From positions 7,680-52,426 of the forward strand of contig PLNN01000037.1 of the NCBI GenBank assembly GCA_003142795.1: a stretch of 44,747 bases of DNA. The letters are read 5' to 3'. The notes under the pieces were generated by a model. That model worked only from the letters and a program-made list of their open reading frames with translations. It made no database searches and was not told the DNA's origin. Made by a program: the position numbers and the translations under genes. Origin of the DNA: Candidatus Omnitrophota bacterium (GTDB taxonomy: Bacteria > Omnitrophota > Gorgyraeia > 2-01-FULL-45-10). Below are positions 26,447 to 44,747 of the stretch, piece after piece (the first letter of the stretch is position 1; each line of letters begins with the position of its first letter).

Positions 26447-26852
26447 CAAGATGTTCATATATTGCGACGGCGGCAGCCGCGGAAATCCCGGGCCTGCCGG
26501 CATAGGCGTCGTGATCCTGGACGCGAAGAAAAAGAAGCTAAAAGAACTTTGGAAATACATCGGCGAGACGACCAATAACATCGCCGAATATACCGCCCTC
26601 ATCCATGGATTGGAAGAAGCGGCGAATTTAAAAGCTGACGAGATAACGATCCACATGGATAGCGAGCTCGTCGTAAAGCAACTGTGCGGTGAATACAAAG
26701 TGAAGAATGCGAATATAAGGCCGCTTTTTGAAAAAGCGCTTGGTATTCTAAAAAAATTCCAGGCTTTCGAAGTGAAACATATAGGCCGGGAAAAGAATAA
26801 AGAAGCGGATAAGCTAGTAAATAGGGCTTTGAATTTATCGAGTTTGTTTTAA
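26436..26852 (+). CDS. RNase HI family protein (start could be ATG at 26451)
   Basis: FIYCDGGSRGNPGPAGIGVVI, NIAEYTALIHGLEEA, MDSELVVKQL, REKNKEADKLVN. Confidence 0.92.
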   Translation: MKNSKMFIYCDGGSRGNPGPAGIGVVILDAKKKKLKELWKYIGETTNNIAEYTALIHGLEEAANLKADEITIHMDSELVVKQLCGEYKVKNANIRPLFEKALGILKKFQAFEVKHIGREKNKEADKLVNRALNLSSLF

Positions 26853-27283
26853 GCGCAGACCGGGTGTTCGCCTGCCGTTTTAAACGTCGGGAGGAAAGTC
26901 CGGGCTCCACAGAGCAGCGTAGCGGTTAACGGCCGCCCGTCGAAAGACGAGGATAAGAGGACAGAGACGAGTCTACTTCGCTGCTACTCTAAAATCGTAA
27001 TGAAGCTACGTAGCACCAAGGTTTCCATGAAAAATGGGGCTTGCCGCTACGAAGCTCCATTAGAGTTTAAGAGTAGTAGCGTAGTAGGGTGAGACGACCA
27101 ATCTCTACGCGGAGCAAGACCAAATAGGTTCTGATCAAGGAGTTGCTCGCTCCTACTGGAAAACACGTCAGTATCAGAACGGGTAAGGTCGCTTGATCGC
27201 CGGAGTGATCCGGCGACCAGATAGATGAACGCCTCGTCCCGATCATATCGGGGCAAGACAGAACCCGGCTTACAGGTCTGCGG
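26853..27283 (+). ncRNA. rnpB: RNase P RNA, bacterial class A-like, with extended P12
   Basis: GGAGGAAAGTCCGGGCTCC, GCAAGACCAAATAGG, AGATAGATGAACG, GACAGAACCCGGCTTAC; P1 pairing CGCAGACC/GGTCTGCG. Confidence 0.93.
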
Positions 27284-27284
27284 T

Positions 27285-27319
27285 GAGGGGTGGTGAAATT
27301 TTACCACCCCTCATTTTTT
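27285..27319 (+). terminator. Rho-independent terminator of rnpB
   Basis: GAGGGGTGGT-gaaatttt-ACCACCCCTC-ATTTTTT. Confidence 0.93.
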
Positions 27320-27385: not shown

Positions 27386-27623
27386 ATCGCAAAAGATTTT
27401 GTTAACGGCCTGAATTTTTTCGCCGTGCGCTACGGTTTACGTTTCGCGAATTTGCAGGAATTCCTTCGGCCGCTGTTTAATTTTCGCTTTTCGCGAAAAT
27501 TATGCTAAACAGCGGCCTCAGTCAGTTCCTGCATTCGCTCAACGTAAATCCTTGCGCACCTACACCCATAACTCAGTAATGCCGAAAAAATTCTAATGGC
27601 CGTTCACAAAATCATTTTGCGAT
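27386..27623. repeat. Large (~238 bp) imperfect palindrome
   Basis: Nested complementary blocks: ATCGCAAAA/TTTTGCGAT, GATTTTGTTAACGGCC/GGCCGTTCACAAAATC, GAATTTTTTCG/CGAAAAAATTC, GTGCGC/GCGCAC, TTTACGTT/AACGTAAA, GCAGGAA/TTCCTGC, GGCCGCTGTTTA/TAAACAGCGGCC. Confidence 0.85.
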
Positions 27624-27673: not shown

Positions 27674-27925
27674 CTCAGAAAATTTTTTGCTTTCATGTTG
27701 AAGGATCCCCAGAGGCGTTTGTTCGATCAACTTCTCAGGAATGTGATGTGGCGATGTGGTGAGCAGGGCGTTAAAACTTGCGCGGCAGCGTCCGCGCAAG
27801 TTTTACCGAGCGAAAATTTTGGCATGGTCCAAAATTGAGCGTCCCTGCGAACCACTCGACACAGCACATTCTACCACCAGCGCACAACGCCGACAAGGGA
27901 ACCCTCTGGAATAGAAAAATTTTCC
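27674..27925. repeat. Structured dispersed element, copy 1 (branched stem with two internal hairpins)
   Basis: Outer arm GGAATGTGATGTGGCGATGTGGTGAGCAGGG pairs imperfectly with CCCTGCGAACCACTCGACACAGCACATTC; internal hairpins AAAACTTGCGCGG/CCGCGCAAGTTTT and AATTTTGG/CCAAAATT; second copy at window end. Confidence 0.8.
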
Positions 27926-27932
27926 CTACCGC

Positions 27933-27961
27933 TTGACAAGGAGTGGGGAGTAATGTATACT
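27933..27961 (+). promoter_or_regulatory. Sigma-70-type promoter for dcw cluster: TTGACA - 17 nt - TATACT
   Basis: -35 at 27933-27938 and -10 at 27956-27961, upstream of mraZ. Confidence 0.88.
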
Positions 27962-27970
27962 TTATACCAT

Positions 27971-28000
27971 GTCGTGGTGTAAAGTGGTTTAAAGTGGAGG
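27971..28000 (+). promoter_or_regulatory. Putative MraZ operator: three 10-nt direct repeats
   Basis: gtcGTGGTgT / AAAGTGGTTT / AAAGTGGAGG, immediately upstream of mraZ. Confidence 0.7.
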
Positions 28001-28009
28001 AGTGTCAGG

Positions 28010-28459
28010 ATGTTTTATGGTGAATATGAGCACACTATAGATAATAAGGGAAGGCTGATAATACCTTCCAAATTCCGGGAGTCCTTTAAGGAATACGATA
28101 TAACCAAATTATATATTACCAGAGGGCTCGACAAGTGTCTTTTTGTATTCACCGAGAACGAGTGGAAGACCCAGGAATCCAAATTCAAATCCATATCGTT
28201 CACAAAATCCGAGGCTAGAAAATTTAACAGGTTGTATTTTTCCGGCGCCAGCCAGCTTGAGTTCGACAGGCAGGGCAGGATACTCATCCCGAAATATCTG
28301 AAAGATTTCGCCGGCATAAAGAGGGATTGTATGATGATAGGCGTTTCGAACAGGATAGAAGTATGGTCCAAAGATATCTGGCAGGGATATTACAACAGTT
28401 CCAAAGATTCATTTGAAGAGATCGCAGAGAAGTTAATGACGCGGCAGGACGAAGAATAA
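28010..28459 (+). CDS. mraZ: Division/cell wall cluster transcriptional regulator MraZ
   Basis: MFYGEYEHTIDNKGRLIIPSKFRE, LEFDRQGRILIPKYLKDFAGI. Confidence 0.95.
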   Translation: MFYGEYEHTIDNKGRLIIPSKFRESFKEYDITKLYITRGLDKCLFVFTENEWKTQESKFKSISFTKSEARKFNRLYFSGASQLEFDRQGRILIPKYLKDFAGIKRDCMMIGVSNRIEVWSKDIWQGYYNSSKDSFEEIAEKLMTRQDEE

Positions 28460-44394: not shown

Positions 44395-44624
44395 AAATTT
44401 TTACGGGTCCTGTCTCGGTGTGCCTTTCGGCGCTTATTTGGCCGAAGCGGGTTTACAATCTCGTGGGTAAAGCTAGGCGCGTATCTATGTGCCGCAGGAT
44501 TGCAGGACTTCCAGCGCCTCATAACCCGGTTAGCTTATATCGCAATCCTATGCGTGCGGCACCCCATCCGCTTCGGCCTTGTTTTTGCGCCTCAAGGCAT
44601 CACCTTCGCCACCCGTAAAAATTT
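44395..44624. repeat. Imperfect palindromic element (~230 bp) with 14-bp perfect terminal inverted repeats
   Basis: AAATTTTTACGGGT (44395-44408) / ACCCGTAAAAATTT (44611-44624); internal complementary blocks GGCCGAAGCGG/CCGCTTCGGCC, GTGCCGCA/TGCGGCAC, GGATTGC/GCAATCC. Confidence 0.85.
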
Positions 44625-44632
44625 CCATCTTG

Positions 44633-44747
44633 CTCAGTAAAATTTTTCGCTTTCTCGAGGAATGTGATGTGACGACGTGGTGAGCGGGGCGTGAAAACTT
44701 GCGAGGCAGCGTCCGAGCAAGTTTTCCGAGCGAAAATTTTGGCATGG
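44633..44747. repeat. Structured dispersed element, copy 2 (truncated by window end)
   Basis: CTCAGtAAAATTTTTCGCTTTC...GGAATGTGATGTGACGACGTGGTGAGCGGGGCG...AAAACTTGCGAGGCAGCGTCCGAGCAAGTTTTCCGAGCGAAAATTTTGGCATGG matches 27674-27827 apart from a ~40-nt block present only in copy 1. Confidence 0.85.

Follow-up and report, generated by a model that had tools for sequence, protein, structure and literature searches.

The window analysed here, a 44,747-nt stretch of a Candidatus Omnitrophota genome, holds two copies of a folded repeat, E1 (27740-27872 and 44661-44747), which is one dispersed family confined in GTDB exact-core matches to Omnitrophota. With some reservation, we consider E1 to be a non-autonomous dispersed mobile element, comparable to MITEs, REPs and YPAL, that is probably recognised as a folded single strand.

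The E1 fold and its surroundings in the window

E1 elements are about 150-270 nt in size and have no open reading frame inside. The conserved three-way core of copy 1 (27740-27872, with + as the folded strand) was matched by the covariance model R1 with 137.6 bits. Folding and alignment of the copies placed the two arms of its outer stem on the + strand, GAATGTGATGTGGCGATGTGGTGAGCAGGG at 27739-27768 (5') and CCCTGCGAACCACTCGACACAGCACATTC at 27843-27871 (3'), enclosing hairpin 1 (27772-27805, +; loop CAGCGT at 27786-27791) and hairpin 2 (27815-27836, +; loop CATGGT at 27823-27828). The outer stem also contains a tandem GA/GA (27761-27762 with 27849-27850, +), the GA of which was invariant in an alignment of copies (A1, see below). 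An earlier note on this DNA had described this stem, both hairpins and the tandem GA/GA, and each was found in the sequence where expected. Computed folding likewise reproduced the described fold, the copy 1 core (RNA) reaching -70.4 kcal/mol against a mean of -39.6 kcal/mol in dinucleotide shuffles (z -8.68; 0 of 200 as good).

Over the whole range 27674-27925 the + strand gave z-scores of -8.8 with DNA parameters and -6.9 with RNA parameters, and the - strand of copy 1 reached -99.2 kcal/mol (z -5.6, RNA parameters). When an extra outer layer is included, copy 1 occupies 27678-27924 (+), its AT-rich ends GAAAATTTTTT and AGAAAAATTTTC being mutually paired; a related layer (...ACAACGCCGAGAGGGGAACC...) was present at L014, L015 and L063. 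Rfam searches yielded no gathering-level match over E1; ten related loci searched at E ≤ 1 gave none either, and miRNA-type matches in the window were at chance level only.

Copy 2 (44661-44747, +; match G000:C60:52331-52426) is truncated where the contig stops at 44747; visible are the 5' arm of the outer stem, hairpin 1 and one half of hairpin 2. Its start had earlier been put at 44633; the element actually begins at 44661, and its left border motif, TAAAATTTTTCG, lies at 44638-44649 (+). The copy sits behind, and adjoins, an unrelated multibranched repeat, E2 (44395-44624, +; ends AAATTTTTACGGGT / ACCCGTAAAAATTT; fold z -6.7), which gave 17 matches in the source genome and occurs there at roughly twelve other places. 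Copy 1 is flanked on one side by the RNase P RNA gene (26852-27288) and on the other by the promoter of a gene at 28010 that looks mraZ-like from its sequence and context. Other features of this region include a long imperfect palindrome, GGCCGCTGTTTA ... TAAACAGCGGCC (27446-27542), located after the RNase P RNA gene and before E1, a near-consensus promoter, TTGACA-17-TATACT (27933-27961), which begins 9 nt behind copy 1, and GTGG repeats (27976-28002) that follow this promoter upstream of the gene at 28010.

Compensatory changes and the folded strand

Covariation across genome copies, which had been proposed as a check on the fold, was evident in A1, comprising 16 full E1 copies. Changes on both sides were found in 12 base pairs (35 cells), a result reached by 0 of 500 shuffles, and control alignments with partners slid by 1-3 columns gave 0-2 such pairs. 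The paired changes included AGGG/CCCT versus TCAGG/CCTGA, and one pair of hairpin 1 occurred as C-G, T-A and G-C. Unpaired stem substitutions in further copies, named earlier as an observation that would count against the fold, were absent, with 92.1% of the cells in the A1 stems paired even when GA positions were scored as unpaired.

A mismatch census was conducted on 58 distinct elements folded with Watson-Crick pairs only. On the + strand, 85 of 97 2x2 internal loops were GA/GA, and the 1x1 loops comprised 25 G.T versus 6 A.C; the latter asymmetry corresponds to p of about 9e-4 if the loops are treated as independent, which is an upper limit on its strength because the E1 copies are related. 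The GA/GA loops and the G.T excess show that the fold is maintained on the + strand; this mismatch pattern would look alike in RNA and in single-stranded DNA. Covariation, GA/GA loops and G.T excess together uphold the earlier proposal of selection on a folded nucleic acid, and on the same strand.

The GA/GA was retained while neighbouring pairs changed. Distant copies had other outer stems but kept GAGC..GGGCGT, CCGAGC..GCGTCC and GCGA, and the inner hairpins varied in sequence with the junction retained. Some species have an additional hairpin (CCGCTTCGCCGAGCGAAGCGAGGC) inserted at the tandem GA, with GAGC repeated on both sides, so that the GA/GA step joins three helices instead of two and becomes a GA-linked three-way step; GA steps look like sites for adding helices. 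The extra hairpin at the outer-stem tandem GA was 24 nt in MAG STD1_81 (L032, L035, L038 and L051).

The two window copies differ symmetrically in hairpin 1, as had been noticed earlier: copy 1 carries CGCG/CGCG (27781-27784 and 27793-27796), whereas hairpin 1 of copy 2 (44694-44725, +) reads AAAACTTGCGAGG-CAGCGT-CCGAGCAAGTTTT, i.e. CGAG/CGAG (44702-44705 and 44714-44717) around the same loop. The direction first given, from C to A, is probably reversed. CGAG/CGAG was found in 14 of the 16 A1 copies, and is therefore the common state from which the CGCG of copy 1 looks derived; it also occurred in all other species seen. CGCG/CGCG was found in source-genome copies L001, L004, L005, L008 and L010, and four of these CGCG copies also differ by a second paired change, from GG..CC to GA..TC. 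The best reading of CGCG is a single two-site change, from G.A and A.G to G-C and C-G, that was copied to several loci. Since it looks like one event and not like repeated independent selection, the difference is not the strong evidence on its own that it had been taken for. The earlier rejection of simple palindrome repair nonetheless holds for CGAG/CGAG, because repair from a template would not yield GA/GA.

Distribution, borders and orthologous insertion sites

The source genome (G000) is a MAG of 1.94 Mb in 70 contigs, in which 39 matches to the E1 region were retrieved; several share 92-96% identity across some 140 nt, and the near-identical copies lie at unrelated loci. At least 7 contigs begin or stop inside an E1 element and many copies contain a short N gap inside their hairpins; given that contig ends and N gaps fall in copies, this assembly undercounts E1. 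Among 85,462 GTDB species genomes, the exact core pattern TGTGRTGTGRCGAYGTGGTGARC was found in 22 contigs from six MAGs, all Candidatus Omnitrophota. R1 matched 39 of the 386 genomes of the phylum Omnitrophota, belonging to the same family and to other families of the class, with up to about 20 matches per genome (both strands counted), the weak matches in other families (E 1e-4 to 1e-7) resting on R1 and on motifs compared by eye. No E1 match was obtained in IMG/VR, phage or plasmid records, and a literature search on such repeats in Omnitrophota found nothing relevant.

Being short and non-coding with many dispersed copies, E1 resembles MITEs, as it does in its terminal inverted repeats: within the lineage of the source genome it ends in an inverted AT-rich border, TAAAATTTTTCG ... 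CGAAAAATTTTA. The motif CGAAAAATTTTA occurred 39 times in the source genome, versus 2 for the reversed control, and the border of G013 pairs as well (TAAAACTTT...AAAGTTTTA). Two further families, E3 (GGCGTAACTTTGTGGCC...) and E4 (GGGCAGATTGACCGGCAGGG...), found at L053, L055, L056 and L067, have the border TAAAATTTTTCG/CGAAAAATTTTA in common with E1. At L024, L026, L027 and L028, E1 halves were joined to other elements, which were E3-type where the sequence was read (L024/L067).

In the family of the source genome, E1 has a strong preference for the site immediately after a stop codon, its folded strand being antisense to the gene. The stop codon of the upstream gene was exactly the TAA of the border TAAAATTTTTCG for 12 source-genome copies, and 21 of 24 right-hand neighbour genes in that genome (called by a simple ORF rule) end towards E1 on the opposite strand. 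E1 elements between codirectional genes were antisense in 29 cases versus sense in 2 (f1 and the source genome), whereas outside this family the counts were 10 versus 8, with no orientation bias. Both window copies break the antisense rule, the surrounding genes being on the + strand. The left flanks of source-genome copies L011, L013, L023 and L058 contained a recurring inter-element spacer like CTGGGGAGTGAGCAGG, which resembles a ribosome-binding site.

Comparisons within the family (argG in 24 genomes, mfd in 22) demonstrated that the C-termini of both proteins lie at corresponding residues with or without a following element. The argG stop was followed by E1-type sequence in G000 and G130 and by unrelated elements with the same border in G392 and G370, whilst in most other genomes argH begins within about 0-30 nt of it. 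Behind the mfd stop, E1 was present in G000, a different element in G388 and none in most. A TAAAATTT-type insert was found exactly at the dnaK stop in G000 (as TAAAAATTTCG), G389, G392 and G130, a variant border (TAAAACTTTCCGC) in G013, and E1 six nt downstream of the stop in G328; the dnaK-dnaJ gap was nearly empty in G023, G007, G374, G288 and G370. For proS, such an insert was present in G000 only, with near-border sequence in a few others. These comparisons show that relatives either lack an insert at the orthologous site or carry a different folded element there, bounded by the same motif, and that the genes are not truncated. Either insertion is aimed at the stop position, or only such insertions survive. 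The presence of several elements at one stop may reflect core exchange after a single old insertion.

Proposed mode of spread and relation to known elements

The favoured reading is that E1 would spread as a folded single strand, probably of DNA, and that a trans-acting, structure-specific enzyme would recognise the fold. Owing to the terminal TAA of the border, insertion between a stop codon and the next gene would keep both reading frames intact, which may be why copies at stop codons survive in compact genomes; an effect on the mRNA 3' end, if any, would be secondary. This reading is favoured because E1 has no open reading frame, the flanks of Y1 genes are different, no target duplication was recognised and the + strand shows no promoter excess. 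Counting against it, no transposase or recombinase gene was found inside or beside the copies examined, and none of the loci read contained an ORF-bearing (autonomous) version. Neither the flanks read nor the orthologous sites compared, none of which was a near-identical empty site, contained a clear target-site duplication.

Several candidate mechanisms were rejected. RAYT-like Y1 genes were found in 12 of 14 genomes tested, including two in the source genome (L130 and L140), and were also present in genomes without an R1 match; as the mobiliser they were set aside since those of the source genome and of G023, G130 and G145 are flanked by other repeats. Omnitrophota RAYT-like Y1 genes (L130, L140, L132, L143 and L131) have their own GGGACA/GGGGACGG-type inverted repeats at their flanks. 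A TA duplication of the IS630/mariner type is not supported, as the base after the downstream border is usually C and not the third base of the stop codon. A border derived from a duplicated AAAATTTT target was ruled out by its paired changes (AAAACTTT/AAAGTTTT in G013).

That E1 is a structured RNA is considered unlikely; in this reading the + strand is transcribed, the folded RNA is predicted to act in cis or trans, and the repeats spread either through the usefulness of the RNA or with its fold as the mobile form. Such an RNA could account for the one-strand compensatory changes with G.U instead of A.C, and for the GA steps and conserved loops that recur in distant copies from further families within the class. 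However, single-stranded DNA would show the same G.T pairs, and none of the ten related loci matched Rfam. Promoter-like sites on the + strand upstream of E1 numbered 7 of 47, versus 5.5 in shuffles, with no excess of an own sigma-70 promoter; because of this, and because the folded strand is mostly antisense to the upstream gene in the source family, the folded strand is no less likely to be DNA than RNA.

It is less probable again that the - strand transcript serves as an mRNA 3'-end element, predicted to protect the upstream mRNA or to halt transcription in the manner of REP and YPAL hairpins. The position directly behind stops between codirectional genes and the stable - strand fold of copy 1 agree with this, but the mismatches favour the + strand (the - strand would carry A.C and TC/TC), no intrinsic-terminator-like site was called in the core, and the orientation bias is absent outside the source family. 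Improbable altogether is an ordinary MITE with terminal inverted repeats and mobilised by a DDE transposase, in which hairpin-templated repair keeps the palindromes perfect with no selection on the fold: its inverted borders, small size, lack of an open reading frame and many copies are those of E1, yet such repair gives Watson-Crick arms, which is at odds with GA/GA being kept as neighbouring pairs change, and the 25:6 strand asymmetry, the retained junction between differing inner hairpins and the want of a recognised target duplication also oppose it.

REP/REPIN and YPAL are the closest published elements to E1. REPs and REPINs are dispersed extragenic palindromes, often near the 3' ends of genes, that are moved in trans and occur as several types per genome (PMC2817692, PMC6006769). 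With their RAYT (TnpA-REP, Y1 HUH), they resemble E1 in being dispersed, structure-bearing and palindromic; a REP, however, is a single hairpin of 20-65 nt with a GT[AG]G foot, whereas E1 spans 130-270 nt, folds into a three-way junction and has AT-rich borders. Many source-genome copies have GTAG ahead of their - strand foot, but it is missing from those of other species, so that E1 lacks the REP foot as a family trait, and the repeats flanking the rayt genes of the genome are not E1. YPAL/RU-2 of Yersinia is palindromic, intergenic, about 168 bp long and co-transcribed with upstream genes, has filled and empty sites, internal inverted repeats and target duplications that vary from 3 to 26 bp, and forms a Yersinia/Erwinia sequence family (PMC2229807). 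Compared by description, neither a covarying GA junction nor a stop-codon border like those of E1 is reported for YPAL, which belongs to another phylum and with which no sequence match was seen. The bacterial MITEs RUP, Correia/NEMIS and ERIC are non-coding, with terminal inverted repeats, many copies and stable transcript folds (PMC2229807). They are simple stem-loops with TA duplications, in contrast to E1, where no such duplication was seen and a branched fold with compensatory change has a fixed strand and orientation.

The E1 ends, TAAAATTTTTCG / CGAAAAATTTTA, differ from the GTTRRRY/RYYYAAC ends of integron attC sites, which E1 does not have. Like E1 in the proposed reading, attC folds as a single strand, and the strand that folds is the template for the gene ending at the preceding stop codon. 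No cassette array or integrase was found near the E1 loci read.

More tentatively, and as a possibility rather than an expectation, E1 may represent a new class of folded-single-DNA-strand cassettes aimed at stops, in which the unrelated branched cores E1-E4 would use one border, insert at the same stops in different species and be swappable or extendable at GA steps. E1 copies account for numerous breaks between contigs and for short gaps within scaffolds of Omnitrophota assemblies. A dispersed repeat with a branched fold maintained by compensatory change on one strand, and with a single orientation at stop codons, would show that mobile elements recognised as single strands can go far beyond REP hairpins in complexity, and E1 makes it possible to test directly if mobility is guided by the fold or by the sequence.
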